Positions 12,279 to 41,340 of a DNA stretch of 64,000 nt are shown piece after piece. The position numbers were made by a program, and so were the translations under genes. Source of the DNA: a virus; the IMG/VR virus record IMGVR_UViG_3300032246_000397, positions 1 to 64,000 of that record; one strand, 5' to 3'. Each line of letters opens with the position of its first letter. Within the stretch, counting starts at the first letter, position 1. A model generated the notes under the pieces. The model ran no database searches. It saw nothing but the letters and a program-made list of their open reading frames with translations, and had not been told where the DNA came from.

Positions 12279-15200
12279 ATGGCAAACGTTCCTTTTGACA
12301 TAGAAGGCGCAAGAAGAGCTGGGGCTAGTGACGCTGAAATAAATAATTTTTTAGGTCAAAAGTTAGGCTTTGATGTAGCAGGTGCAAGGCAAGCAGGGGC
12401 ATCTGACGACGTTATTCTTGAAACATTATTAAAAGGTCCCGCGACTAAACAAGCGGCGGCTGCTCCTTCAACTGGAGAGGCTGGTTTTTCCGCTAAAGAT
12501 ACGGCTATTGCTTTAGGACAAAGCGTTCTTGGTGCTGGCAAATCATTTACTGATGTGGCTGGGGCTAACAATCCAGTATCTCAAACTTTGGGCGCTGCAG
12601 TAAATAAATTACAAGAACAGTACACTCCAGAACGTAAAGCGGAAATGCAACGTCGTGCGCAATTGCAAGAAGAGGCGTCTAAGTCTGGCGATATAGTAAA
12701 AGAAATTAGTACTTTTCTGGGCGGTATTACAGAAGCCCCGATCCAATCTCTTGCGCAAGGTTTAGGTTCCGTAGTACCTTATATTGGTACGGGTGTTGTA
12801 GGCGCTGTAGCTAAACTAGGTGGTCCAACACTTACAGCTATAAATACTCTAATGGGTTTTGTTCAAGGTGCCGGTTCTGTTAAAGGTTCTTTATACGACA
12901 ACGTTAAACAAGAATTAGAAAAAAATGGAATGAGTTCAAGAGAAGCTGAAGCTAAAGCTTCTAAAGCTCAAGAGTATCTTGGAGCAAACTTCCTAGACAT
13001 AGCTGGTGGTGCCGTGCTAGGCGGTGTAGGTGCTAGGTATGGTGTAGAAAACTTATTACAAAAAGGCGCCGCACAAAAACTTAACGCTAATTTAATACCC
13101 CGCGTCGTAACTGCTGCCGCTGCTGAAGCTCCATTAGAAGGTTTACAAGGCGGTCAAGAACAGTTAGCTGTTAACCGAGCGTTGCAAAAAGAAGGTATAA
13201 AAGTTGGTACATTAGAAGGTGTTTTTGGTTCTGCCGCTAGAGATGCTGCACTTGGCGCGTTGACTGCTGGCGCTGTTGGTGTTCGTGGACCGGGCGGTGT
13301 TAGCAACGAACAACTGAAAAAAGATCTTTTACAAGAAGAGCTTGATAAGCAAGGTAAGGTAGAAGAAAAAGCTCCTATTGAAGATACTGACTATAGACTT
13401 AAAAGTGTTGTTGATGAAACAGGCGCTGCTTCGCAATTTGCAACGGACGAATTAAAACCTAATGAAACAATAGACATACTTTCTACTGAAGAAGAGATTG
13501 CTAAACTTAAAAAAGAAAACGCAGAGCGCAAAGAAAAAATGGATGCGGGGCAAGACCATCCAAGAAGAAGGGCTAAATATGATGAAACAGAAGCCAAGAT
13601 AAAAGACCTTGAAACTAAATTAGGAGGCCAAAATGTCGGAACAACTAGCACTGTCGATGAAACAGATAGAAGTAGCGTTGGAATATCTGGACAGCAAGAT
13701 ACTACTGCCTCTACCACTGGAACTGCCGGCACTGAGACCGGAGGAGTGGGAGGAACTACATTACCTGCTGACTTGTCTCAAGAAGGAGAAGGAACAGAGC
13801 GTACTACATTAGATCCTTACAAATCGTTTTTTAACTGGGCATCTCAAAACGGTATTAACTTACCAGAAGATGGAGAAACTACTGACTTCCCTGAGCTTGT
13901 AGAACAATGGGGCGCGGAAACTAATCAACCACAAGACTTAATTAATGAACTTGCTGGTGTAGAAAAAACGCCTACAGTTGAAGAAAATAAACCGCCTACT
14001 AATGAAGTAATTGATGAAGAAGCGTTGGCTGCAGACCAAGCCAAGGCCGCCGCCGCTGCAGCTGCTACAACTAAAACTAGATATTCAGCAGTGCCTTACG
14101 TTGATCCAGATACTAAAGAACCAACCACAGTAAACTTTGACGAGGCTTATGTTGAAGACGGGACTATTTATATACCGGGCACTGCAGGGTTTGATTATCC
14201 ATTAGAAAACTTTAACTTAGGTGAAAGAAACTCAGAAGCTGCAGCATTAGAAAAATCATTACTAGATAAGTTTGCAGAAGAACTACAAGTAAAACCGCCC
14301 GTAGAAGAAACCACAGCTGAAGATCAAGCAGTTGTAGAAGAAGAAGTTGCCGCTGAGTTAGCTGGTGAGGTTACACCGCTTGCAAGCCAAGCTAAGCCGC
14401 TTGCTGTAGCTCCAGAAAAAGTATTAGAACAAAAAGCTAAAACTAAAAAAGCTACGGAAGAAGCAGCAAAAGATTTAGGTAAACCAGAACAACAAGATTA
14501 TCTAAACACTAATAATTATTATGGCGCTAACGCTCCTAAAGACGTTAATACTGCGTTAGTTCACGCTGGGCATGAAATTGCTTACGATTCATATGACACC
14601 TCCGCAAGGAAAACTGGAGTTGACCCTGAAGTTAAACGGATAGCAAATCAAAAAAATATAGCGCAAAAAGCTAAACGCGCGCAGATGACTAAAGAATTAA
14701 CCGGTAAAAAAGATCCAGAAACAGGTAAAACATATACTAAAAAAAGAATAGAAAGTCTTGTATCTAACATACCTTTATATGATGCAGGTGTACCTCTTTC
14801 ATTTTTAACGCCAAAAGAATTAGCTGATATTTATATTAAACACGTTGGCACAAAGCAAATTGTTAAAGAAGAACGTAAAAGCCGGCAAGAACATGCTGAC
14901 CGTAGAGATAAATTTCTTGAAACTCTTGACCCATTGCAAACAGCTAAAGTTAAACTTGTAGCTAGAAGAGCGCTTGAAGAAGAAATAGTGGCAAGAGAAA
15001 GTCGTAAACAAAAAACTACTGATGCAGATAACCGTAAAAATAGAGCGGATAAAATATCTAAAACTGCCGACGAATTGTCACAAGAAATAGCAGAAATTGA
15101 AAAAACAAAAGTAGCTAAACAAGAAGAAACTGCAAAAACCGCGGCTGAAAAAGAAGTGTCTGAGGAAAAACAATTAACTCAAGAGCTAAAAGAATTTAAT

Positions 15201-18200
15201 AAAGCAGCTGAAAAGATACTACCTAAAAAAGAAACAAAGCCAGCTGAGAAAAAAGCTCCCGCTAAGTCTAAACTTATAACAGAAATTGAAGCCGCGGTTA
15301 ACGAAGACAAAACCGTTGAAGCTGTTTTAGATGCTGTTGCAGAAGATAAACGCGGTCAATTAGGCGTAATAGCTAAACAATTTAAAAATTTAATAAAAAA
15401 CTTAGGGTTGCCTACGTCGGTTACTATTAGCTTTGGTGAAGTTACAGGAAGTGATGGGCAATTTAACCCTGCAGATAACACTATTACGCTTAAAGGTGAA
15501 AATGGGGTATACACTGGTGAACGTCCGCTAAGCGAAACAGTTTTGCATGAGATATCGCATTACTTGATGGATCATGTAGTTGATAACCCTGATGAATATA
15601 TTAAATCACTACCACCAGAAAAAAGGGCAGAAGCTCGTGCAGCGCTTAATCGGTTAAACAATAACTACCGCTATGTAAATAGTAAATTAGGTAACAAGTT
15701 TAATATTGGAACTATTAAAGAATTTATAGCTGAACTGTATTCTAACCCTAGATTTCAAGAAGCTGTAGCAAATCTTGACCAAGGTACTTTGGGCGTTGAT
15801 TACATGACCGTTAAAGAAATAAACGGTAAAGAAGAAGTAATTGGAACAAATAGAAATATACCAGGACCACTTAAATCATTTACCTCAGCAGTAAACAGAT
15901 TTACTATGATTGCTCGGTCTATAGCGTCAGCGCTAGGTTTTGGCGGTAATAAAATTGGTGCTACTTTTAAAGAAGCTGTTGAAGACGTTGCAAGACTTAT
16001 ATCGTTGCCAAACGCTGAATTAGGTTTAGTAGGTAAAGAAATATCGTATTCTAAAACCGCGCCGAATGCTTTAGAAAAACAATTGCGGCAAGACACGGAA
16101 TTAGATGTTGATAATGCCCAGTATGACCCGCCGCCAGAACAACAACCTAAAAACCTTAAATACTTTAAAGACTTGTTTTTTACTTCTAAAGGGTTAAGGG
16201 ATATTGTTCGCGCATTACAAAATAAACGTTACGAAGCAAAATACAGACAAGACCAAATGGATCTGGCTGGTGTATTAGAATACACTGACCCTAAAAAGAT
16301 TAACAATTTTTATACACAATTAACTTTGGCGTCTGGTATGGCTAAAAATAAATTTAATCAGTTTATTTTGGGGCCTTATGAGTTGTTAAATAAAAGTCTT
16401 TTTGATTTTAAAAAAGCAACTGGTTTCGATTTAAAACAATCGCTTAACTATTTGCACCAAGTGTTTGAAGCGCTGCACACTGAAGAGCGTAACATGGTTA
16501 AGTTTATTCTTAACGTGCCTCTAGATAACACAAAGAAAGTATATAGAAATAATACTATCACCGCGGCTGACCGCAGAAAAGAAATTATAGATCTACTTAA
16601 ACAAAAAACTTTAAGTAAAGACCAAGCTAAACAACTTAGATATGAGTTAGATTCATTAATATTTAAACGTGATGCAAAAGGTAAAATTGCAGTGGACCCC
16701 GCAACAGGCAAAAAAATAATTAATAAAACTAACGTTGATCCGACTGTAGGGATGACTGCTGACCAAATTAAAAATGCAACGGCAGAATCGTTGGCTAATC
16801 AGATTGATCCTGATTATATATTGTATAACGCCACCGGTTTAAGTATTAGCGCAGCAAGAGCTAAAATACAAAAGTATGAAAAGAGTCCACATAAAGATAT
16901 ATTAGACGACATGATTGGTGCTATTAAAGAATTACACCAAGTTACAGTTGATCTTAATAAAGAAGGTAATTATTGGTCAGATAAAGTAAGTAATTTTGTA
17001 GACTTCTACGGGTTTGAAAATTATGTGCCGTTAAAAGGTGTATCTAAACCTAATAAAACGGACGAGCTTTTTGATTTTGATTATATGGCTGGCGGTAAAG
17101 AACTACAAGATGTACCACACTCAATGGATGGACGTAGTAGTGTTTCTAATAATCCGTTACTACAATCAATGTCAGACGCGGTAAAAGCCGCCGGTCGTGC
17201 TGGTAGAAGAGACTTAACTTTAGCAGTTAAAAATGCATCTAAAAAAGGTAAGTATAACCCAGACGGTCAAGGGCATATAGAAGCAGAGGTGATTAAGCAT
17301 TTAACTTTTGAAGAACGGACGCCTGACGCCATCAAAGCTTTGCCTACAGAGCATACTCTTTTCCATTTTAATCCTGATGGTAGTTTGGACGTTATTCAAA
17401 TTATGGATCCCCGCCTTCTTAATTCTATTAGAAGCACTTACAAAGATACTTGGGTTGTTACTGAGTTAGCTAATAAAATTACTAGCGGCTTAGGTCAATT
17501 ACACACTCGTTATAACTATAACTTTGCTCCATTAAACTTTGTTCGTGACGCATTAACCAACGCTTGGGCTATTGGCGCTGACATGGGCGTAGGAGAAGCG
17601 GCTAGATTTATTAAAGAAGTATCGACTAAAGTTGCGGCGCAAGGGGTTCTAGGTAAAGCTTATAGAGTAGCAAAACTATATGATTCCAAAGACCATGCGT
17701 TATTAAAACAATTAGCCAAAAAAGACCCTGTTATTAGAGACATGTATGAGTTTATAGACCGCGGTGGAATGACTGAATACATAGAAGGTATGTCTCTTAA
17801 ATCTAATTTTCAACGTTTACAAAGCGAACTTCGTCGTGGCAATGTAATGCGCAACGTCGATCAATTTAATAAGTTTGTAGACGGCTGGACTAATATGTTT
17901 GAAATTGCTAGCCGTTCCGTTGCTTACGGCATTGCTAAACAAAACTACATAAAAAAAGGAAAAATGTCCGAAGAAGCTGCTTCTATTAAAGCGGCTGAAT
18001 TTGCTAAAAACTTAGCTAACTTTGAACAAGTAGGTGAGTATGGCAAAGGGATGGGCGCAATATTTATGTTCTTCCGTCCCGCTGCAACGGGCGCTGTCCG
18101 TGCTATGGAAGCTTTAATTCCAGCGTTTCCTTGGAGTCTTGACAGAGCTATTAAAAATTTACCTAAAAAAATTGCTGAAGATAAAAAAGCATTAGATACA

Positions 18201-19259
18201 TTTAAAAAGAATTACGCTGAAAAACAAAAAAATGCCCGTTATATGTTTACTACATTAGCAGCAATGGGTTCGCTTTTCTATGTAATGTCTTGGATGATGG
18301 CAGATGACGATGACCAAGGGCGCAATAAAACTTTAGTTGATGATATGAATCAATGGACTAGATTTGCTAGGTTCCATGTTCCCGGATTCCAACAACCGTT
18401 TCAAATTCCTTGGGGCTTTGGACTTGGCGCAATTGCGGCGGCTGGCGCTCAATTAACGGCTGTTGGGTTTGGTCGTCATTCATTTGGCGATGCTATGTTT
18501 AATATAACCACTAATATTACTTTGGATTCATTTATTCCAATTCCAGTATCTCGTATGGATGTTAGGGATAACCCTGCATTGTGGGCTTTAGACTCAGCTA
18601 TGCCAAGCTCTATTAGGCCTATACTTGAGTTTGTTGTTAATAAAAATGGTTTAGGGCAGCAGATATATGGTGATTCTAACCGCCGTATGGCTGACGCTTT
18701 TATGGGTGGAGATAACATACCAGAAACTTACAAAATCACTGCTAAAGCGTTGTTTAAAGCAACTGACGGGTATATTGATTGGTCGCCCAATAGTATGTAT
18801 TTCCTTGCAAATAGCTACGCTGACGGTCCAGCAAGAATTATTGACTCGATGGTTTCGGCTGGGTATCTTGCCGCTGGTAATAAAGAGTTTTCACCTAAAA
18901 CTGATTTACCGTTTATAGGGTCTTTTGTTGGCGCTAAATCTAATATAGATAACAAAGAATTTTCTTCCGTTGAAAGACAAATTAAAGAACTTAGTGAAAA
19001 ATTAAACGGTATAAAGAAAGCTGATCCAGAAAGTTACCCAGACTTTTTAGATAAAAACCCAATGGCAGAAGCTATAGTAGCCATATACGACAGAAATATG
19101 CCTGCATTAAATACGGCTAGAGAAGAAGCTAAAAGAATTAGGTTATCAGATTTTAGCCCTAAAGAAAAAACAGAACTATTAAAAGACTTAACTCTTCAAC
19201 AAAATCTTATTAAACGTAACATGGTAGATATATTTAAAGACTTTGATATAGAACCCTAG
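12279..19259 (+). CDS. Giant polyvalent internal virion protein with predicted metallopeptidase motif
   Basis: 2326 residues, starting directly after the previous stop. The N-terminus has two copies of a motif of the form G-A-R-(R/Q)-A-G-A-S-D, then a membrane-like Ala/Gly region, a long acidic/Lys-rich coiled or disordered part (about 370-1000), and a zinc-peptidase-like HEISH at residues 1090-1094. The C-terminal half, including NFAPLNFVRDALTNAW (about residue 1748), resembles the large-polyvalent-protein domain LPD38. Such proteins are packaged and delivered with the genome. Its stop overlaps that of the opposing minus-strand gene. Confidence 0.8.
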   Translation: MANVPFDIEGARRAGASDAEINNFLGQKLGFDVAGARQAGASDDVILETLLKGPATKQAAAAPSTGEAGFSAKDTAIALGQSVLGAGKSFTDVAGANNPVSQTLGAAVNKLQEQYTPERKAEMQRRAQLQEEASKSGDIVKEISTFLGGITEAPIQSLAQGLGSVVPYIGTGVVGAVAKLGGPTLTAINTLMGFVQGAGSVKGSLYDNVKQELEKNGMSSREAEAKASKAQEYLGANFLDIAGGAVLGGVGARYGVENLLQKGAAQKLNANLIPRVVTAAAAEAPLEGLQGGQEQLAVNRALQKEGIKVGTLEGVFGSAARDAALGALTAGAVGVRGPGGVSNEQLKKDLLQEELDKQGKVEEKAPIEDTDYRLKSVVDETGAASQFATDELKPNETIDILSTEEEIAKLKKENAERKEKMDAGQDHPRRRAKYDETEAKIKDLETKLGGQNVGTTSTVDETDRSSVGISGQQDTTASTTGTAGTETGGVGGTTLPADLSQEGEGTERTTLDPYKSFFNWASQNGINLPEDGETTDFPELVEQWGAETNQPQDLINELAGVEKTPTVEENKPPTNEVIDEEALAADQAKAAAAAAATTKTRYSAVPYVDPDTKEPTTVNFDEAYVEDGTIYIPGTAGFDYPLENFNLGERNSEAAALEKSLLDKFAEELQVKPPVEETTAEDQAVVEEEVAAELAGEVTPLASQAKPLAVAPEKVLEQKAKTKKATEEAAKDLGKPEQQDYLNTNNYYGANAPKDVNTALVHAGHEIAYDSYDTSARKTGVDPEVKRIANQKNIAQKAKRAQMTKELTGKKDPETGKTYTKKRIESLVSNIPLYDAGVPLSFLTPKELADIYIKHVGTKQIVKEERKSRQEHADRRDKFLETLDPLQTAKVKLVARRALEEEIVARESRKQKTTDADNRKNRADKISKTADELSQEIAEIEKTKVAKQEETAKTAAEKEVSEEKQLTQELKEFNKAAEKILPKKETKPAEKKAPAKSKLITEIEAAVNEDKTVEAVLDAVAEDKRGQLGVIAKQFKNLIKNLGLPTSVTISFGEVTGSDGQFNPADNTITLKGENGVYTGERPLSETVLHEISHYLMDHVVDNPDEYIKSLPPEKRAEARAALNRLNNNYRYVNSKLGNKFNIGTIKEFIAELYSNPRFQEAVANLDQGTLGVDYMTVKEINGKEEVIGTNRNIPGPLKSFTSAVNRFTMIARSIASALGFGGNKIGATFKEAVEDVARLISLPNAELGLVGKEISYSKTAPNALEKQLRQDTELDVDNAQYDPPPEQQPKNLKYFKDLFFTSKGLRDIVRALQNKRYEAKYRQDQMDLAGVLEYTDPKKINNFYTQLTLASGMAKNKFNQFILGPYELLNKSLFDFKKATGFDLKQSLNYLHQVFEALHTEERNMVKFILNVPLDNTKKVYRNNTITAADRRKEIIDLLKQKTLSKDQAKQLRYELDSLIFKRDAKGKIAVDPATGKKIINKTNVDPTVGMTADQIKNATAESLANQIDPDYILYNATGLSISAARAKIQKYEKSPHKDILDDMIGAIKELHQVTVDLNKEGNYWSDKVSNFVDFYGFENYVPLKGVSKPNKTDELFDFDYMAGGKELQDVPHSMDGRSSVSNNPLLQSMSDAVKAAGRAGRRDLTLAVKNASKKGKYNPDGQGHIEAEVIKHLTFEERTPDAIKALPTEHTLFHFNPDGSLDVIQIMDPRLLNSIRSTYKDTWVVTELANKITSGLGQLHTRYNYNFAPLNFVRDALTNAWAIGADMGVGEAARFIKEVSTKVAAQGVLGKAYRVAKLYDSKDHALLKQLAKKDPVIRDMYEFIDRGGMTEYIEGMSLKSNFQRLQSELRRGNVMRNVDQFNKFVDGWTNMFEIASRSVAYGIAKQNYIKKGKMSEEAASIKAAEFAKNLANFEQVGEYGKGMGAIFMFFRPAATGAVRAMEALIPAFPWSLDRAIKNLPKKIAEDKKALDTFKKNYAEKQKNARYMFTTLAAMGSLFYVMSWMMADDDDQGRNKTLVDDMNQWTRFARFHVPGFQQPFQIPWGFGLGAIAAAGAQLTAVGFGRHSFGDAMFNITTNITLDSFIPIPVSRMDVRDNPALWALDSAMPSSIRPILEFVVNKNGLGQQIYGDSNRRMADAFMGGDNIPETYKITAKALFKATDGYIDWSPNSMYFLANSYADGPARIIDSMVSAGYLAAGNKEFSPKTDLPFIGSFVGAKSNIDNKEFSSVERQIKELSEKLNGIKKADPESYPDFLDKNPMAEAIVAIYDRNMPALNTAREEAKRIRLSDFSPKEKTELLKDLTLQQNLIKRNMVDIFKDFDIEP

Positions 19260-19286: not shown

Positions 19287-19465
19287 TAGCCTTCTTTAGT
19301 TGCAACGTAAGACTTTACGCGTTTGCCAGCGCGCTTTGCCCCACAGTCTATAGAATAGATTAACTCCGCAGGGCGGAGAGTAGGGATAAAAAAACTTTCC
19401 CCAACCTCCATGCCTTCAAACGGTAGCAGCCATTCTGGTTCAATGATCTGCGTGGGATTCAACAT
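19256..19465 (-). CDS. Small protein of unknown function, end of early operon
   Basis: 69 residues, overlapping the 3' end of the primase gene by 26 bases. It contains PFEGMEVGESFFIP and a basic patch (AKRAGKRVKSY), ending WRTA. I recognise the pattern as a small conserved phage protein but no function. Its TAG stop shares CTAG with the stop of the opposing 2326-residue gene. Confidence 0.75.
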   Translation of the reverse strand: MLNPTQIIEPEWLLPFEGMEVGESFFIPTLRPAELIYSIDCGAKRAGKRVKSYVATKEGYLGVRCWRTA

Positions 19466-22325
19466 TTATAAGTTCCATGTTATTTTTAAACAGATAAACG
19501 TTTGTAGCTTTAGTTGTAGTGGTCGCTTTCCACCCAGTCTCTAAATGCTTCTTAGCAGCTTTATCTAGCATCTCTCCAGATTCCATCATGTGTTTCTCAA
19601 ATTCTCGTGGAGAAATCTTCTTCTTAAGCAAGTACTCTTTCAACGCTTCTTTAGATATACGGGTTGCTTCATCAGTTGCCACCCTTGCTACTAACTTACC
19701 GCGCGGTTCATCAATAACTTTGTTTTCTTTAATGCGTAGAATGTTACCCATATTCTCATAGATAAAGTCATTCAATATTGCAGAGTAATCCGTAGAATTT
19801 AGCTTGACCACATTAAGCTTGATATTGTTAAGCTCTTTAATAATCTTAGCGTAGATACGCTCCAAATCGTAGTTAACAATTCCAGCATCGTTAGCAATCT
19901 CGCCAGCTGTAAACACTGCCGCTACAAAGTTCTGATGGAAACGATAGGCTGAGTCACCACCTGTATCAGTTAAATATCTATTAATCCAATAGTCAATACG
20001 CTTCTTAATATGGATATCACCAAGCGTCAACACCTCAGTAATAAACATAGGTCCTGAGTGCCCGTAGTTATGCTTAAACGCATCAAAAATATGAACGCCT
20101 AGCTTTGCGCCATCAGCTCCTTTTAAATCGTCTGGCTGCTCAATTAAGAACTCAATCAAACGCGCTACCTCTCCGTCAGGGCTTCCTTTAAGAATCTCAA
20201 ACTTGTTGTAAACAGATTCGTTTGTGGTTAACACAGCTATTAAAGACGCTGACATTTCAGACACACGCTCAGCATTGACCGACGCTTGCATCCTAATCTT
20301 AGCTTTGCCATTTGATACGTTATGTACTAACTGAGATAACGGTTTAGGGTCTTTGTTACCAATCTCGTCAACTCCAAACATAAGGTTCTTAAGACCCAGC
20401 ATACGACCAGTCAAACCATTGTCTGTACTTTCAAACACGCTAAGCGCATCAGGGTCTCCAAAGGTACTAATGCCAGCATACATCGCTCCAGTCTTAGCAC
20501 AACCCGAACGACCTAGTAGAGATATGACAACGCCGGGTGTAGACATGTAGGGCATGAGCGTTGAACCAAATCCAGCCAAGCAAGCCATAGCATGTAACTC
20601 AAATCCCGGACGGTTTAATTCATTTGCCGATTCTTGCCAACGCTCAAACGTACCTATCTTATTAAAGTGTTTTGCAACTCCACGGATATACGGAGATACA
20701 GGCGCCTCTACTGTTTCTTTCTCGTAAGTTATCTCGCTTTCACCAATAACAAAACTTCTTTTATCCCATTCTGCGGTATTCTTTGCCGCTGTCCAACCTA
20801 ACTGCATGCGCATCTGTTGCGCCTTGTGTACTAAAATCATGTATTTACTCCATGTGACTATATATTCTTGAATGTGATTGATATGTTTAGGGCTATAAAT
20901 AACCTGATGGAATGAGAGCGTCTTTTTAAATTCTTCTAATGCATAGACAGATTTCATTGGAAGTAAGAACTCCTTTAGTCCATCATTAGGAAGAATTAGA
21001 TTCATTGTTAAACACTCGCCGTCCAGCTGACTAAACAATCTGCGTGTTGGATATAAGATATGTGAGAGTATCTCAATCGGGTCTTCGTACTTTACGTTGC
21101 CTTTCTTGTCTGTTTTTGGGGGTGGATAAAAATATATACCGCCATTCTCTCCGCGGGTATATGGCTTTAAAAAATCTGGGAATTTTGGAATTTTTTGGGT
21201 ATTCGGTTCTTTCCGAATTGGTTCCTCTTCATTGGCTTTTTCAAAGAGGCTGGAGATAGCGTCTGGGATTGGTTCAATAATTGGGGTGTCTTCTGTCGCT
21301 TCCTTAAGAATCTTTCCCAAAACAATAGGAGATTTAATTTTTCCACGGTGTTTGCATCCTTTGCATTTTTCTGGATAGTTATCTTCAAACCATTCGCATG
21401 TGCGAGGGGCTGGAAAACGGCTGGCTTTTTCTTCTGTATCTTTGTGGCTATAGCCGGGGTGGTCTTCTGAAATAAGATGTATAGCAGTAGCGCCGTCAGT
21501 ACAAAACTTAGCAACTGATAACCCAGCAAACCATAACGGTTCTTCTAGGGTAGCGGACTCTACTAAAATACGTTCTATCTGAGCGCAACCATCACCAGCC
21601 AATGAGCGTTCCGCAATCTTTTGGAATCTCCACTCAAAGTTATCTAGCTTTTTCATGGCTAGGGTATCTTCGTCTAACCCCCTACGAACATTAGCAAACG
21701 GGTCTTTAACCTGTTCAGTTTCTATACCATCTAAAAATGATTTAAACTCATCCCAGTCATAGACGCTAATCTCTTCACCAATAATAGACGTAGGTTCTGG
21801 TGGGTCAAACTTATAGTTAAGCGTGTCAGGGCAACGCATAATGCGAGCCGCATCTGCCATCACCGCCGCATCGGCAGCTATTCTTTCTAACGCATATACC
21901 TTGAACTTCTGCGCATAGGGAAGGTACTCTTCAATTGGTATATCCCTATCCATAATCCAATAGGCATGCATGCCACCGCCACTATCAATGCACACAGGGC
22001 TAGGCATACCTGTTTCACCAAGGAACTTCCATAGGGCTGTTTGCGCCTCGCCTTTGTCACCATATGCCTTACCTTCGCCAACGTCTAAGTCAATAAAAAA
22101 TGTACGGTAAAACAGGCAGTTTTCCGCCTTCCTACTAAATCCATCAAAGCTACCTAATGCAACAAATGTGTTAAGTTTTTGTCCTTTTGTTTTTTCAATT
22201 AGTTTAAATACATCTTCAAGTGTTTCTGCAAAACGGTTCGTTGTTTTCTTTGTTGTTTGTTCTATACCGCTTACACAATAAACACCCTGCGATGGCAATG
22301 CTTTCTCATAAAATTGTTTTAACAT
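19440..22325 (-). CDS. Primase-helicase: AEP-type primase fused to DUF927-like ATPase
   Basis: 961 residues. The N-terminal part has archaeo-eukaryotic primase motifs: FFIDLDVG (acidic DLD at 79-81), SGGGMHAYW (115-123) and a downstream ARIMRCPDTLNYK block. A Cys-rich segment (CEWF...KCKGCKH, about 315-332) may bind zinc. The C-terminal half has Walker A GRSGCAKTG (about 603-611) and FGVDEIG as Walker B, like DUF927 superfamily helicases. It should prime and unwind DNA at the fork in place of a T7-type gp4. No Shine-Dalgarno is visible at the ATG, which lies just after a terminator hairpin. Confidence 0.88.
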   Translation of the reverse strand: MLKQFYEKALPSQGVYCVSGIEQTTKKTTNRFAETLEDVFKLIEKTKGQKLNTFVALGSFDGFSRKAENCLFYRTFFIDLDVGEGKAYGDKGEAQTALWKFLGETGMPSPVCIDSGGGMHAYWIMDRDIPIEEYLPYAQKFKVYALERIAADAAVMADAARIMRCPDTLNYKFDPPEPTSIIGEEISVYDWDEFKSFLDGIETEQVKDPFANVRRGLDEDTLAMKKLDNFEWRFQKIAERSLAGDGCAQIERILVESATLEEPLWFAGLSVAKFCTDGATAIHLISEDHPGYSHKDTEEKASRFPAPRTCEWFEDNYPEKCKGCKHRGKIKSPIVLGKILKEATEDTPIIEPIPDAISSLFEKANEEEPIRKEPNTQKIPKFPDFLKPYTRGENGGIYFYPPPKTDKKGNVKYEDPIEILSHILYPTRRLFSQLDGECLTMNLILPNDGLKEFLLPMKSVYALEEFKKTLSFHQVIYSPKHINHIQEYIVTWSKYMILVHKAQQMRMQLGWTAAKNTAEWDKRSFVIGESEITYEKETVEAPVSPYIRGVAKHFNKIGTFERWQESANELNRPGFELHAMACLAGFGSTLMPYMSTPGVVISLLGRSGCAKTGAMYAGISTFGDPDALSVFESTDNGLTGRMLGLKNLMFGVDEIGNKDPKPLSQLVHNVSNGKAKIRMQASVNAERVSEMSASLIAVLTTNESVYNKFEILKGSPDGEVARLIEFLIEQPDDLKGADGAKLGVHIFDAFKHNYGHSGPMFITEVLTLGDIHIKKRIDYWINRYLTDTGGDSAYRFHQNFVAAVFTAGEIANDAGIVNYDLERIYAKIIKELNNIKLNVVKLNSTDYSAILNDFIYENMGNILRIKENKVIDEPRGKLVARVATDEATRISKEALKEYLLKKKISPREFEKHMMESGEMLDKAAKKHLETGWKATTTTKATNVYLFKNNMELINVESHADH

Positions 22326-22391: not shown

Positions 22392-22703
22392 CTAAATATT
22401 TTCGCCAATCATATCCTCTAAGTAAGTCTTAGCTTGGGCAGTGTTTTTAACTGGTAAAATACCTTTAGCAGTATCACTTTCCACTAAGTCTGTAAATACT
22501 TCGACAAGTTGTTGGTTTTTAAAACGAATTGGTTTGCCACGGAACCAGCTATGAAGTGTCATCCGAGTTACTTTAAGCGCAACAGCTACGTATTTGGCAG
22601 GTAAATTTGCTCCTATACATGCTTTAGCTAAAGCAACTCCGGGATAATTAGGGTTTAACTTATTAACTTGAATGATTAATTCTTTGCTGTACGTCCGTGG
22701 CAT
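22392..22703 (-). CDS. Small helix-turn-helix DNA-binding protein
   Basis: 103 residues. Residues about 24-60 (AKACIGANLPAKYVAVAL, then TRMTLHSWFRGK) fit an HTH of the phage-regulator type, where the second helix T-x-x-T-L-H-S-W-F would be the recognition helix. The C-terminal part is acidic. It is followed at once by a terminator, so it is the last gene of its transcript. It is a candidate binder for the repeated operators in the early region, by inference only. Confidence 0.75.
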   Translation of the reverse strand: MPRTYSKELIIQVNKLNPNYPGVALAKACIGANLPAKYVAVALKVTRMTLHSWFRGKPIRFKNQQLVEVFTDLVESDTAKGILPVKNTAQAKTYLEDMIGENI

Positions 22704-33099: not shown

Positions 33100-34413
33100 T
33101 TAGTCCTTATCAAATATAACTTTCTTGCCACATGGAACTTCCAAGCTCTTGTTCTGAGTAATCATCCACAGGGTAGGTGGAACGATATCCCACACAATGT
33201 CATTCTCTACATACCCGTCGGTAAACACGATGACGCACTCTGCGCTAAGTTTCTTCTCCTTGATGTATTTCGCTACACATGAGACGTGAGTACCGCCACC
33301 GCCTAATGGTTTTAGTAGCGATGCAATGGATTGATATTGGTCAGGCTTAAAGACTTGTTCGCCATGCACTTCGGCATCCCACCATATAACTCTTACTACA
33401 TCAGGCGACACTAAGTCACAGATGGATGCCAGTTCTGTTGCAAACTCCGTAAGTTCTACACCACCGATAGACCCCGACGTATCAATAGCCACGATGACCT
33501 CGCCGATAGTTTCGTTCTCCATGCTTGGCATATAAATATCATTCGCCATGTGACGCTTGTTCATCTTGCGCCAAGTAAACTCATCTTTGCCTTTCATGGT
33601 AGATGACACAAAGTCACGCAACGCATCTCGCCAATCTATCTTAGGTTCAAGCAAGTCGCTGATTGCTCTAGGAAGTTTCCCACCCATACGACCAGCAAGC
33701 ATACCGCCTTCACGCAACGCTCTGTCAATCTTGTCATTCAAGTCTTTAACATCTTCGGGGCTGATGTTCTCCCAGTCATGCTCGTCGAATCCATCGCCAC
33801 CCATGTCATAGTCTTTGCCGTTGGCTTTGATTACGTCGTCGCTATTTTGCTTTCCACCCGATGATGGATCGCTACCTTGCTCGTCATCACCCACGCCGTT
33901 TCCTTCGTCTTTGCCTGAGCCAGATGAGCTACCTTTAGGTTTTTGTCGTTGAGGATTTTCCTTACGGATATAGTTATAGACCTCACGCATATTCCAGTTG
34001 TGAAAGAACGGATCATACAACGCACCATCAGGCAACTCGACCAACTGCTCATTACCACCAGCGACCTTTCCCTTGATGTTAGCGATGATGTCATTGACTA
34101 CAAAATCCGCCGCCATGTTTGCAACCTTGCTATCTTCCTTCCACATATCCTTACCACGAGGGATTTGTTTCAATGCCACATGAAGATTCTCATGCAAGAC
34201 CAGACCACGCAACTTGGGTTCGGATAAAATAGTTTCTAAGAATGGGCGAGAATACTTCTTGTTCACACCGTCGGTGTATGCCGTAAACATATTCTCACTC
34301 ACCTCTGACTTACCCATCAGCATTACACCGCTATACAACGCAGTCTCATGGTGCTTCATCAATGTTACGTGGGCTTTTTTCAAGCGTACTTCTTGTTTGT
34401 TTTTCACTTCCAT
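33100..34413 (-). CDS. VWA-domain protein with zinc-peptidase-like N-terminus (CobT/DUF2201-like)
   Basis: 437 residues. The N-terminal domain has HENLH at 74-78, an HExxH zinc-protease motif, as in the DUF2201 putative metallopeptidase domain. A Gly/Ser/Asp linker spans about 160-215. The C-terminal VWA-like domain has the MIDAS sequence AIDTSGSIGG (309-318), a Thr in GGGGTHV and a downstream Asp in VFTDGY. With the AAA+ ATPase 0.3 kb upstream it resembles MoxR/VWA and CobS/CobT pairs, in which ATPase and VWA partner remodel or metallate a target. The target here is unknown. Confidence 0.82.
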   Translation of the reverse strand: MEVKNKQEVRLKKAHVTLMKHHETALYSGVMLMGKSEVSENMFTAYTDGVNKKYSRPFLETILSEPKLRGLVLHENLHVALKQIPRGKDMWKEDSKVANMAADFVVNDIIANIKGKVAGGNEQLVELPDGALYDPFFHNWNMREVYNYIRKENPQRQKPKGSSSGSGKDEGNGVGDDEQGSDPSSGGKQNSDDVIKANGKDYDMGGDGFDEHDWENISPEDVKDLNDKIDRALREGGMLAGRMGGKLPRAISDLLEPKIDWRDALRDFVSSTMKGKDEFTWRKMNKRHMANDIYMPSMENETIGEVIVAIDTSGSIGGVELTEFATELASICDLVSPDVVRVIWWDAEVHGEQVFKPDQYQSIASLLKPLGGGGTHVSCVAKYIKEKKLSAECVIVFTDGYVENDIVWDIVPPTLWMITQNKSLEVPCGKKVIFDKD

Positions 34414-34728: not shown

Positions 34729-35802
34729 TTAGAACAACTCGTGATTATTCTTAGCCCAGTCTGCAATCTGCAAATTGTGTCGGGCAAGTTTCATCGCCTT
34801 GGTGTTACGCATCATCATAGTAAAGAACACCGCTTGCACCTCTGAACTAGGAATTTTATTAACAAACTTCATGAACTTGGTTAGTTCGTCTTGCGTATCA
34901 ATAGTGTCTACTGCTTGAAACATAATCATTAACTGCGCTGATATCTCTTCGGGAACTTTTATTCCGTCTGGATCTTTGATGATATCTTTTACATCCACTA
35001 GAGTTTTCTCCAACGATAGAAACGCTGACATATCACCAGCGCCACTAGCACCGATAGTGCCAGCCAATGCGACCATCGTTGCGTTATCACCCAATGTATC
35101 TCGATTCTTCACAATCACATCGCACTTAGCTAATGAACGGGGCGAACAGAAAGAAAGATTAGTTTTCTTAGGGTTGAAAATGTATGGGTTATCATCTTGA
35201 TCTCCAGTACGATAGCTTGCCAATGTCCGAGGGAACATAGCTACGAACGCACGAACAACACGAGAAACACCCCTAGCTGATGACCACTCTAGCCATTCAT
35301 TAACGCTTGGCTTTGCCATCTCCATAATACATACACGATTACCAGCATGAGCCAACATCGTATCGCCCACCCCATCGCTTGCATTGTTTGACGTGCCGAA
35401 AACGATACTACCTTTGGGCAACGCTTTGTCGCCGACCATTCTCTCCAACATCAGACGGGTAAAGATAACTTGCAATAGCTTTGGTGACTTCATGAACTCG
35501 TCGAGCAAGATAACCTTTGGCTTAGGAGAGTCAAGTTTGAAGAGAGATGAAACATAATACTCAAGCGACTGCGTAGCATGGTTTGGAATAGTCATACCTA
35601 CGTCGGACATATCCTTGACTGGGCAGTCCACATAAATGTAATCGTACTTGTCACCGAAGTCTTCCTCAATCATAGATAAGATCGAAGTCTTGCCACAACC
35701 CGGCTCGCTCACTATGATTGGTGTGATTTCTGAACCTATTAGGGGAATGGTTTTACGCAACTCGTTAATAGTTACTGTGGAATTGAAATTGATTTTAGAC
35801 AT
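34729..35802 (-). CDS. AAA+ ATPase of MoxR/CobS type
   Basis: 357 residues. Walker A SEPGCGKTS (32-40), Walker B VILLDEF (97-103), sensor 1 GTSNN (136-140) and a probable arginine finger in HAGNR (R156) are in correct order. The C-terminal lid is helical. These match MoxR/CobS-like ATPases that act with VWA partners; a VWA-metallopeptidase gene follows three genes downstream. Excellent AAGGAG. Likely a hexameric remodelling ATPase during early infection. Confidence 0.88.
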   Translation of the reverse strand: MSKINFNSTVTINELRKTIPLIGSEITPIIVSEPGCGKTSILSMIEEDFGDKYDYIYVDCPVKDMSDVGMTIPNHATQSLEYYVSSLFKLDSPKPKVILLDEFMKSPKLLQVIFTRLMLERMVGDKALPKGSIVFGTSNNASDGVGDTMLAHAGNRVCIMEMAKPSVNEWLEWSSARGVSRVVRAFVAMFPRTLASYRTGDQDDNPYIFNPKKTNLSFCSPRSLAKCDVIVKNRDTLGDNATMVALAGTIGASGAGDMSAFLSLEKTLVDVKDIIKDPDGIKVPEEISAQLMIMFQAVDTIDTQDELTKFMKFVNKIPSSEVQAVFFTMMMRNTKAMKLARHNLQIADWAKNNHELF

Positions 35803-37784: not shown

Positions 37785-37811
37785 GTCCTTCTCCTTCATT
37801 AGAGTTGTAAA

Positions 37812-37829
37812 TTCCACTACATCGTGGAA
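37812..37829. repeat. Palindromic repeat copy 2, in leader
   Basis: TTCCAC-TACATC-GTGGAA, a perfect 6-bp inverted repeat, followed by AGCTAAATAGCG. It lies between promoter and ribosome site of the 68-residue gene, so it can act as an operator or as an mRNA hairpin. Confidence 0.75.
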
Positions 37830-37888
37830 AGCTAAATAGCGTTGCTGGGTTCGGGTTGCTTCGTGAAATGTCGCCCATCAACATTATT

Positions 37889-37917
37889 AGTATACCACAA
37901 CTTTACTTATTAATCAA
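37889..37917 (-). promoter_or_regulatory. Sigma70-type early promoter, TTGATT-N17-TATACT
   Basis: Minus strand TTGATT (37912-37917), 17-base spacer, TATACT (37889-37894). Spacer and -10 flank (GTAAAGTTGTGGTATACT) are identical to the promoter at 36.9 kb. It drives four ATGA-coupled small genes. Confidence 0.8.
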
Positions 37918-37952
37918 GCTCTTATATGACTTTTTTATACGAGACAAGAACC

Positions 37953-38330
37953 AAAAAATTCCAAGTTCGGTTGAAAAATTCCAGTAAAATTCCAAGTTCA
38001 AAAACCGATTTGGAATTTTTTTAGACGAGGTAAAATCGGGCTGGAAGCCTTATGTTATCTACTAGTAGTAGTAGTAAGATATATATAAATATATAAAAAA
38101 TTCCAAAATTCCAGTAAATAAAATAGAGGGCGGTACCTTGTAGTCGTTTTTTGCACTGGCTGGGCAAAGTCTTTGCTTGCTAAATATTTCCAATTTACCC
38201 TGCCCCCTCCTAAAAAAACTTGGAATTTTGGAATTTTTTAGAAATGTCCTTATAGATCAATGTCTTACAAGCGAAAAAAATTCCAACTAGGTAAAAAAGT
38301 TCTGAATAGGTTTTTGGAATTTTTGATTTT
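37953..38330. other. Gene-free AT-rich region with AATTCCA iterons, candidate replication origin
   Basis: Between the early promoter and the cassette terminator no coding frame is convincing. The sequence holds about ten AATTCCA/TGGAATT motifs in both orientations (near 37957, 37977, 37988, 38010, 38099, 38107, 38221, 38228, 38279 and 38314), two with the extension AAGTTC. It also has a (TAG)4 run and TATATATAAATATATAAAAAA (38060-38100). Iterons plus an easily melted tract between divergent operator arrays is a typical origin layout. No function is proven. Confidence 0.55.
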
Positions 38331-38400
38331 GCATTGGGCCTGCTGTGTCTGAGCCACGTAACCTATCATTTCTTAGAATTCTAAATGATGCATAGCCAAA

Positions 38401-38418
38401 TTCCACTAGACCGTGGAA
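38401..38418. repeat. Palindromic repeat copy 3
   Basis: TTCCAC-TAGACC-GTGGAA followed by AGCTAAATAGCG, sharing arms and 12-base tail with the copy at 37812. It lies between the candidate origin and the 38.47-kb direct repeat. Confidence 0.75.
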
Positions 38419-38465
38419 AGCTAAATAGCGACCTTGTGCTGGCAAAGGCAAGGCGTTCGCGCACG

Positions 38466-38505
38466 CGCTCGAGAACAAATAACTGGCTTCAAAATCGCTA
38501 GGCGC
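38466..38505. repeat. Cassette-boundary repeat R1
   Basis: First copy of a repeat of roughly 38 bp with the core CTCGAGRACAAATAACTGG and TTCAAAATCGC to its right. It sits immediately beyond the terminator of the 196-residue gene. Two more copies occupy the same place after the terminators at 39.3 and 40.15 kb. Confidence 0.85.
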
Positions 38506-38540
38506 AAAAAAAGGGACAGGGCAATTAAGCCCCATCCCTT
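38505..38540 (-). terminator. Strong rho-independent terminator
   Basis: Minus strand AAGGGATGGGGC-TTAATT-GCCCTGTCCCTT then seven T: a 12-pair stem with two G-U pairs and a U-tract. It lies ten bases after the stop of the 196-residue paralog gene and closes that single-gene transcript. Confidence 0.92.
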
Positions 38541-38549
38541 AGAACTATC

Positions 38550-39140
38550 TTACTTGATAGCTTTTACAATCGCACTGATTACAGCATCATCTACTGTACT
38601 ATCTCCCCTGCCCTTAGCTGTCTTAGCACGGGTTTTGATAGTGTCTACTGTTTCAGCCAACCAAACAGCAAAATCTTTGGTAGGCGCACGGTCATGAGTC
38701 TTACCGTCCAGCTTATCCTTGTATTGCTTAACGTATCGTTTAAGATCCTTCATACGGTTGGATTTGTAATCGGACCAGTCATCCCGCCATCCCTTATGAA
38801 TACCATGCTTGACGGGATCTTCGTTACGCCATTTACCAAACTCTTGAGAAGAGTAGGACATCACGACGTTGATATCAACCTTAAATGCGCCATCAGTATC
38901 TTCTGATACTGGGATCCAATCAGCACTGTAGTACTGGGGAGGATTTAGCTCATTAAAACGTAACATCTGACCCGACTCAATCTCTACTTTGATTTCATCA
39001 GGAATGGCATCTAAAAACGACGGGCATTTATTGTAGATAAACTGACCGATATTAATACCACGTTCAGAACTGATACAGCCTTGATAGCTTGCGTCCTTCA
39101 AGCTAGTGATTTCGGACGTGAATGATTTTTTGATAATCAT
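38550..39140 (-). CDS. Early protein, paralog of the 39.3-kb gene, unknown function
   Basis: 196 residues. It aligns end to end with the 215-residue protein next door: ITSLKDASYQ, IPDEIK, LRFNEL, SYSSQEFGKWRNEDP, NRMKDLKR and KGRGDST have clear counterparts there. Its own promoter (39178-39206) and strong terminator make a single-gene unit. GGAG lies 6 bases before ATG. High-expression signals and a DNA-binding-like basic character suggest an abundant nucleic-acid-associated protein, which is inference. Confidence 0.8.
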   Translation of the reverse strand: MIIKKSFTSEITSLKDASYQGCISSERGINIGQFIYNKCPSFLDAIPDEIKVEIESGQMLRFNELNPPQYYSADWIPVSEDTDGAFKVDINVVMSYSSQEFGKWRNEDPVKHGIHKGWRDDWSDYKSNRMKDLKRYVKQYKDKLDGKTHDRAPTKDFAVWLAETVDTIKTRAKTAKGRGDSTVDDAVISAIVKAIK

Positions 39141-39225: not shown

Positions 39226-39250
39226 TCTTAAACAATGCGCTCGCTCGGTG

Positions 39251-39289
39251 CGCTCGAGGACAAATAACTGGTTTCAAAATCGCAGGGCG
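39251..39289. repeat. Cassette-boundary repeat R2
   Basis: Second copy of the core CTCGAGGACAAATAACTGG followed by TTTCAAAATCGC. It lies between the terminator of the 215-residue gene and the promoter of its 196-residue paralog. Confidence 0.88.
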
Positions 39290-39318
39290 AAAAAAAGGGG
39301 AGAGCCGAAGCCCTCCCC
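39290..39318 (-). terminator. Rho-independent terminator with UUCG loop
   Basis: Minus strand GGGGAGGGC-TTCG-GCTCTCCCC then seven T. Nine-pair stem, one G-U, closed by a UUCG tetraloop. It follows the stop of the 215-residue gene by seven bases. Confidence 0.93.
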
Positions 39319-39324
39319 AATCTG

Positions 39325-39972
39325 TTACTTATTCCATTGAACCATAAAAGCGTCAACGGCTAACTTCAACTTCGCCTCGTTCGCGGTCTCATCACCACGA
39401 GACTTAGCGTTCTTGCACTTCACGATCAAACCTTGATCGCCCTTGAACACTTCAACCACGCGTTGATTAAAGTCTAGCGTAGCGCCACGCTCTTTCGTTT
39501 TACCCTCGTTCAGGATAGTACGGGCTTGGCGCTTTAGATCGCCTAAGCGGTTAGAGCAGTAGGTGTTCACCTTGTCGCGCCATGACTTGATGATTGCGTG
39601 TAGGTACGGATTTTCGTTTTTCAACTTACCGTACTGTTGTTGACTGAAACTGAAAGCGTAGTCAACACCAACAACCACCTTTTCACGCTCATCTTCGAGA
39701 GCAGGGTTTGAGCCGTCGATCAATAAATAGTGATCGTTAACAATCGCGTAGCGTTCGGCTTTGTTCACTTCGTTAAAGCGTAAACGATAGCCGTCATACA
39801 ACTGCTCTTTGACTTCGTCGGGTACAGTTTCGGGAAACCCCTTTGACTGCTCCATAACATAGCGAGCAACACCACGCATACGGTCATTAGCAACCGCTTG
39901 TTTATACGCACCATCTTTGAAAGAGGTGATCTGATCGTTTACTGCAGGTACTGCGAGGGCTTTAGTAGCCAT
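39325..39972 (-). CDS. Early protein, paralog of the 38.55-kb gene, unknown function
   Basis: 215 residues. Blocks shared with the 196-residue neighbour include ITSFKDGAYK, VPDEVKEQL, LRFNEV, FSFSQQQYGKLKNENP, SNRLGDLKR and KSRGDET. Lys/Arg-rich C-terminal half. AAGGAG precedes the ATG, with promoter TTTACA-N17-TATAAC 60 bases upstream and its own UUCG terminator. The twin arrangement points to duplication of a complete transcription unit. No known domain recognised. Confidence 0.8.
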   Translation of the reverse strand: MATKALAVPAVNDQITSFKDGAYKQAVANDRMRGVARYVMEQSKGFPETVPDEVKEQLYDGYRLRFNEVNKAERYAIVNDHYLLIDGSNPALEDEREKVVVGVDYAFSFSQQQYGKLKNENPYLHAIIKSWRDKVNTYCSNRLGDLKRQARTILNEGKTKERGATLDFNQRVVEVFKGDQGLIVKCKNAKSRGDETANEAKLKLAVDAFMVQWNK

Positions 39973-40137: not shown

Positions 40138-40165
40138 AAAAAGAAAGCCGACCCGAAGGTCGGCT
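40138..40165 (-). terminator. Rho-independent terminator with UUCG loop
   Basis: Minus strand AGCCGACC-TTCG-GGTCGGCT then TTCTTTTT. Perfect eight-pair stem and UUCG loop, six bases after the stop of the 107-residue gene. Ends the first early operon. Confidence 0.93.
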
Positions 40166-40170
40166 AAGTA

Positions 40171-40494
40171 CTACAAGGAATTGCTACACATTCCACCATG
40201 CTTAAGTATCACTTGAATGATTACCTCAGCAGGAACCCAACAGAATACGGTGCTATCTTCACACTCATGAAAGGGCATGAGTAGCTCTTCATGCTGACTT
40301 GGATAACCTACCTCATACTGCACATATGCTGTAGTGTTATCAGTACGAGGCGTTGAGTAATGGTGCTTACTTGCCTGTACTGACATGGTGAAACCGTCAG
40401 CACATTCGATTGGCGTAGCAACATTAGTGCTATCTTTAGTACTAGCTATATGCTTATTGATAGCAGTCCAAGTAGGTAGGATATTGACTCTCAT
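40171..40494 (-). CDS. Small early protein of unknown function
   Basis: 107 residues from ATG 40494, which has AAGGAG upstream and overlaps the previous stop (ATGA); the longer open frame would run through the membrane-protein gene. Mixed composition with CWVPAEVIIQVILKHGG near the C-terminus. Third gene of the first early operon. No domain recognised. Confidence 0.72.
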   Translation of the reverse strand: MRVNILPTWTAINKHIASTKDSTNVATPIECADGFTMSVQASKHHYSTPRTDNTTAYVQYEVGYPSQHEELLMPFHECEDSTVFCWVPAEVIIQVILKHGGMCSNSL

Positions 40495-41307: not shown

Positions 41308-41340
41308 TGGTGCACCGCAACATAACTTATGGAGAAAACC

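Follow-up and report, generated by a model that had tools for sequence, protein, structure and literature searches.

A conserved iteron array as the probable replication origin of a phage with a SaPI Rep/Cch-like PrimPol-helicase

To our knowledge, the replication origins of lytic phages are mostly unmapped beyond a few models. The window analysed here, 64,000 nucleotides that make up nearly the whole of a 64,185-bp virus record from an uncultivated phage, raises the question at a single locus: does a repeat-rich stretch near 38 kb serve as the origin, as the initial annotation proposed, and if so, which protein reads its repeats? We conclude that the region at ~37.95–38.33 kb is very probably an iteron-type replication origin run by a PrimPol-helicase related to SaPI Rep and Cch, a reading that is well supported though short of proof. 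The genome is arranged in three gene blocks, a rightward one (0.1–19.3 kb, + strand) with structural genes, a leftward one (19.4–41 kb, − strand) with replication and early genes, and a second rightward one (41.6–63.8 kb, + strand) with terminase, portal and tail genes. The leftward block encodes an N4 gp24-like ATPase near a VWA-like protein, a PolA-type polymerase, an SNF2 helicase, a 961-aa PrimPol-DUF927 protein and, by our own reading of the sequence, a putative RecB-like nuclease. The ATPase (phrog_1297; 34729–35802) and the VWA-like protein (phrog_1314; 33100–34413) stay together in this phage group, and distant relatives of the former occur in 493 phage records. A 2,326-aa protein (12279–19259) has no PHROG match and is a candidate for a virion-carried protein.

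The repeats themselves are clustered far beyond chance. Ten of the 13 copies of AAAATTCCA in the window fall inside 370 bp, where about 0.1 would be expected, and the full 64,185-bp record has 12 matches to the pattern AAAATTCCAR, ten of them at 37955–38323 (six on the + and four on the − strand), against none for its reversed control pattern. The initial annotation had counted about ten AATTCCA/TGGAATT motifs in some 380 bases, and indeed AAATTCCA is present ten times in 378 bp against 0.07 expected under a first-order Markov model trained on that same AT-rich stretch (maximum two in 20,000 simulations). It is also the densest 8-mer of the window, tied with one CCACCACC repeat. The paired motifs that had been described are real as well: AATTCCAAGTTC lies at 37957 and 37988, and for the overlapping pair GGAATTTTGGAATT at 38220–38237 there is an inverted partner at 38097–38114.

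These two overlapping pairs form the core of the array. Read from the early strand, AAAATTCCAAAATTCCAA (38220–38237, − strand) is a '++' tandem pair facing the inverted '--' pair AAAATTCCAAAATTCCAG (38097–38114, + strand), and the spacer of 109 bp between them (38113–38221) is less AT-rich and carries G-rich/C-rich arms. Within the spacer lies a central box, CAGCCAGTGCAAA (38150–38162, − strand); many relatives of differing iteron type carry it at ~57–60 bp from the '++' pair. Outer iterons surround the core, with three copies of AAAATTCCA on the + strand starting at 37955, 37975 and 37986 (37955–37995) and copies of AAAATTCCAA at 38010–38019 (− strand), 38277–38286 (+ strand) and 38314–38323 (− strand). 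We also considered the core as a large hairpin, with a folding z of −3.9, and rejected this reading because the inverted iteron pairs themselves largely cause this value.

Next to the core lies a putative unwinding element. The AT-rich tract at 38051–38101 contains TAGTAGTAGTAG and TATATATAAATATATA as well as the TAG/TATA tract that had been noted earlier (38062–38096), and the iteron sets at 37955–38019 and 38097–38114 flank its bulk at 38051–38096. According to a melting profile, which the initial annotation had suggested as a check, nowhere in the 64 kb is the DNA less stable than at 38051–38101, at window lengths of 30, 50 and 80 bp alike. The same arrangement is seen in related phages, where, in 45 of 48 cores, A+T content peaks no more than 40 bp downstream of the inverted pair's left edge, and the 40 bp starting 20 bp past this edge are on average 88% A+T. 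Clustered specific short repeats and an adjoining AT-rich unwinding element, both expected of an iteron-type origin, are hence present together.

The array is flanked by a terminated leftward gene on one side and by the start of the leftward early operon on the other. An intrinsic terminator (38511–38540, − strand) closes the former, and a predicted sigma70-type promoter TTGATT-N17-TATACT (37889–37917, − strand), which would drive the leftward early genes, lies at the downstream edge of the array and is conserved in relatives, as is AAAAAAGTCATATAAGAG immediately upstream of it (37919–37936, − strand). In agreement with the earlier statement that no gene is present, none is likely between the leftward gene ending at 38550 and the leftward genes starting at ~37800; one 82-codon open reading frame (38287–38535, − strand) overlaps the array edge and lacks support. 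The further statement that the first early genes are read away from the array holds for the leftward genes between 37.8 and 19.4 kb, but two more leftward genes are found on its other side. The latter (38550–39140 and 39325–39972) are each followed by a terminator of their own. Their products, of 196 and 215 aa, resemble each other on visual inspection, match no PHROG or Pfam family and evolve fast in relatives.

Several further elements recur around these genes. A CTATTTAGC-TTTCCACGRTSTAGTGGAA element with a stem-loop TTCCAC..GTGGAA is repeated at 37809–37841, 38398–38430 and ~39206, is kept in relatives regardless of their iteron word, probably belongs to the 5′ leaders of early genes and is possibly an RNA element that controls early mRNA. 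We considered its inverted repeat (37809 and 38398) as a part of the array and discarded this, since TTCCAC is kept where the iteron is TTCTA and its position fits a 5′ leader. A conserved GCGATTTTGAARCCAGTTATTTGTYCTCGAGCGC, read on the early strand, follows each terminator (38440–38500 and 39240–39290), and ACCAGTTAT words are also found upstream of most arrays. A search of Rfam gave no match above gathering scores; a terminator region at 40138–40209 resembles the SorX/SorY sRNA under the gathering score and is probably a plain terminator.

To place the array in an evolutionary context, we searched IMG/VR with the ATPase and obtained 80 loci. Where the sequence upstream was long enough, almost all loci, among dozens of relatives, carry a clustered word 2–4 kb upstream of the ATPase gene, so that such an array is the rule inside this phage group. 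No comparable array was found in the parts searched of cultured phages with a distant DUF927 primase, namely Pseudomonas phage Rollin and Rhizobium phages RHph_TM27A and kin. The word itself varies by lineage (AAATTCCA, AAATTCTA, TTGTTCCA, TTGTTCTA, AGTTCCTA, AGTTCACA or GTTCAA) and is nevertheless uniform inside each genome, a uniform replacement that would be expected of binding sites following their protein. We took the words from k-mer enrichment, because in some genomes automatic EM motif searches ended up on AT-rich words.

What stays constant while the words change is the geometry. A tandem pair with half-sites 8–9 bp apart faces an inverted tandem pair in 48 of 64 sequences taken over all word types, with four identical half-sites in 44 of these 48 cores, and among close relatives the tandem pair AAATTCCAAAATTCCA is the longest invariant block. 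The gap between the inner half-sites (99–151 bp) clusters near 99, 109, 119, 131, 140 and 151 bp, the window falling into the 109 class, and hence changes in steps of ~10.5 bp; across 35 non-redundant cores the period is 10.5–10.7 bp (R 0.72–0.73). Of all periods from 4 to 20 bp, 10.7 bp fits best (R 0.73, Rayleigh ~1e-8), a value matched by none of 20,000 jittered sets, for a phasing that was spotted first and tested afterwards. A severe discount for relatedness weakens it, with p 0.0008 at 20 and p 0.036 at 12 assumed effective samples. Among 15 phylogenetically independent pairs of cores, four differ by 1 bp in their gap and the others by 10, 10, 10, 11, 11, 12, 13, 21, 22, 25 and 31 bp (p 0.0005). 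When we measured how far the core lies from three coding genes, no clear period emerged, one of nine tests being marginal (p 0.04).

Two further boxes take part in this layout. A second box, CAANNACTTA, is found either 18 bp before the first pair or 48, 59, 70 or 79 bp after the inverted pair, across the melting tract, so spaced in whole turns (R 0.90); in the window itself this box is degenerate. A central box CAGCNAGTGCAAA in the middle of the core scores at least 9/12 in 58% of cores compared to 4.5% of shuffles. A more specific model would be that a pathogenicity-island-like initiator acts on a phase-locked origin, the pairs lying on one helix face, spacer and melting tract being kept in whole turns, and initiator and word drifting together. 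We regard this model as plausible, if somewhat short of probable; if true, the phage group would amount to a natural series of differing origin specificities and could serve as a ruler for the assembly of two helicases.

The best candidate for the initiator is the 961-aa protein encoded at 19440–22325 (− strand), in which a PrimPol domain is joined to a DUF927 helicase (Pfam match 6e-17) and a C-terminal domain (~841–950). We modelled it with AlphaFold on a 29-sequence alignment (mean pLDDT 79, pTM 0.44, which leaves the domain arrangement uncertain) and compared the model to the PDB with Foldseek. The best matches were SCCmec Cch (E 5e-20) and SaPIBov1 Rep (E 1e-16), and for the N-terminus PrimPol enzymes. 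Both chains are recovered at the sequence level, too, by a profile of the alignment (Cch, 5dgk, 9e-15; SaPIBov1 Rep, 8tch, 1.4e-10), and the Cch match reaches residue 931 and so spans the C-terminal domain. Helicase core and C-terminal domain are hence homologous to SaPI Rep/Cch in sequence as well as in fold. In SaPI Rep and Cch2 it is the C-terminal domain that binds the origin iterons, and the homologous helicases are known self-loading initiators (PMC7581432).

If the protein reads the words, both might be expected to change together, and we compared word distance to protein distance with the other segments allowed for. The partial r was 0.22 for the C-terminal domain, 0.22 for residues 225–330, 0.37 for residues 476–600 and negative for the PrimPol domain and for a 103-aa helix-turn-helix protein whose gene (22392–22703, − strand) immediately precedes that of the initiator. 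Covariation of the word with the initiator C-terminus thus appears weak, and in two close pairs (G021/G025 and G037/window) the word has changed and the C-terminus barely. Since the covariation is weak and such pairs exist, the assignment of the 961-aa protein as reader of the array words, which we infer, comes mainly from homology. The helicase core looks mosaic, as G004 and G006 differ from the window in the core and share its C-terminal domain type and iteron word. The phrog_1297 ATPase was also considered as initiator and set aside, being annotated as MoxR-like in relatives and adjoining the VWA-like protein as in N4 gp24/gp25.

The same weak covariation and the pairs in which only the word changed, together with several fast-evolving early proteins that have no assigned function, would fit an origin whose iterons are read by another phage or host protein that loads the DUF927 helicase as a merely replicative enzyme. 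We consider this unlikely, though the most serious of the alternatives, because the homologous helicases are themselves known as self-loading initiators (PMC7581432), lineage-specific words are not readily explained by a host protein, and the only other early protein among those examined that has a recognisable origin-binding domain is the helix-turn-helix protein. The array could instead be an operator for a phage regulator, this protein for example, which would loop the DNA and switch the early sigma70 promoter rather than serve replication. The conserved promoter directly beside the array, the phased inverted sites, which a repression loop would fit, and the conserved position of the helix-turn-helix gene before the initiator gene speak for this. 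Such an operator does not need the strong one-sided melting tract seen in 45 of 48 cores, however, and the helix-turn-helix protein fares poorly as an iteron reader: its recognition helix hardly varies where the words do, its correlation with word distance is negative, and G021 and G025 have identical copies of it but different words. An operator in place of an origin is hence improbable, while the origin may have an extra regulatory role.

Least probable is that terminase binds the array as a packaging or terminus site, or that the array serves in partition. Terminase genes do lie 4–6 kb from the array and several contigs end in or near it, but other near-complete contigs end elsewhere with the array internal, and the gene order of G004 wraps around, so that the contig ends look permuted. 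Furthermore, no partition gene was recognised, and a melting tract is not expected at sites of either kind.

Our preferred reading is therefore that of a replication origin, which the conserved position, the geometry with its helical steps, the melting tract and the SaPI Rep/Cch-like initiator all support. The 961-aa helicase is a product of the leftward early operon, and its C-terminal domain probably contacts the AAAATTCCA iterons; the helicase would then load itself on the exposed strands, presumably as two rings assembling head to head. Its PrimPol domain, or an early transcript, would prime the PolA-type polymerase of the phage, and DNA synthesis would start at the array. Overall, we hold this account to be likely. 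GC skew, of which an extremum away from the array had been named as contrary evidence, does not discriminate here: the cumulative minimum at 41,326 is 3.2 kb from the array and formally counts against it, yet minimum and maximum (19,156) coincide with both switches in gene direction (~41.5 and 19.3 kb) and hence neither support nor refute an origin. Third-position skew shows a weak sign change at the array, based on few codons.

Dozens of relatives provide an evolutionary record of one origin in which words change, geometry stays constant and spacing is kept in whole turns. Two questions thereby become testable: the drift of origin specificity, and the way in which SaPI Rep/Cch-type helicases, acting as a pair, recognise an origin and open it.

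When compared to characterized origins, the array shares with lambda ori the combination of phage iterons, there bound by O protein, and an AT-rich tract; unlike here, the lambda iterons lie within the initiator gene, O recruits host DnaB, and the initiator is unrelated. The alpha protein of phage P4 unites primase, helicase and origin binding in one polypeptide acting on ori/crr iterons, and differs from the system described here in helicase type and origin layout. The fusion in P4 alpha is also stated in PMC7145576. At oriC of Bacillus subtilis, with its DnaA boxes and DnaA-trios, tandem boxes likewise lie beside a melting tract, and helical phasing of the distal initiator box has been experimentally shown (PMC6669920). 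The initiator there is DnaA, whereas the phage words are not TTATCCACA and no phage DnaA was recognised among the main early proteins scanned. Trio-like CTACTACTA runs are found in just 12 of 48 phage cores and are absent from most relatives, and we do not regard them as defining.

The closest relatives of the system are found on mobile islands. Residues 521–931 of the phage protein have their best relative, by structure and by sequence, in SCCmec Cch (DUF927 helicase, PDB 5dgk). For Cch2, which is unrelated to Cch, the C-terminal domain has been shown to bind direct repeats at a putative origin (PMC7581432); unlike the phage array, this site has three iterons only and a separate primase, and SCCmec replication in vivo is unproven. 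In PICI/SaPI elements (SaPIBov1 Rep, PDB 8tch; PMC6092414) the origin lies just downstream of rep, whereas the phage array at 38.1 kb is 16 kb from the proposed initiator gene (19440–22325); since it is not beside this gene, it resembles a PICI origin and is not classed as one. The phage system further differs in its inverted tandem pairs, the helically stepped spacing, a melting tract that lies outside the two core pairs, the fusion of PrimPol to the DUF927 helicase and its location in a phage genome. Both have in common short iteron sets around an AT-rich melting site, an element-specific word and a homologous helicase of the self-loading kind, the putative initiator in the phage, with which a primase is encoded. 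Finding so close a counterpart in a group of phages has implications for the source of island replicons.
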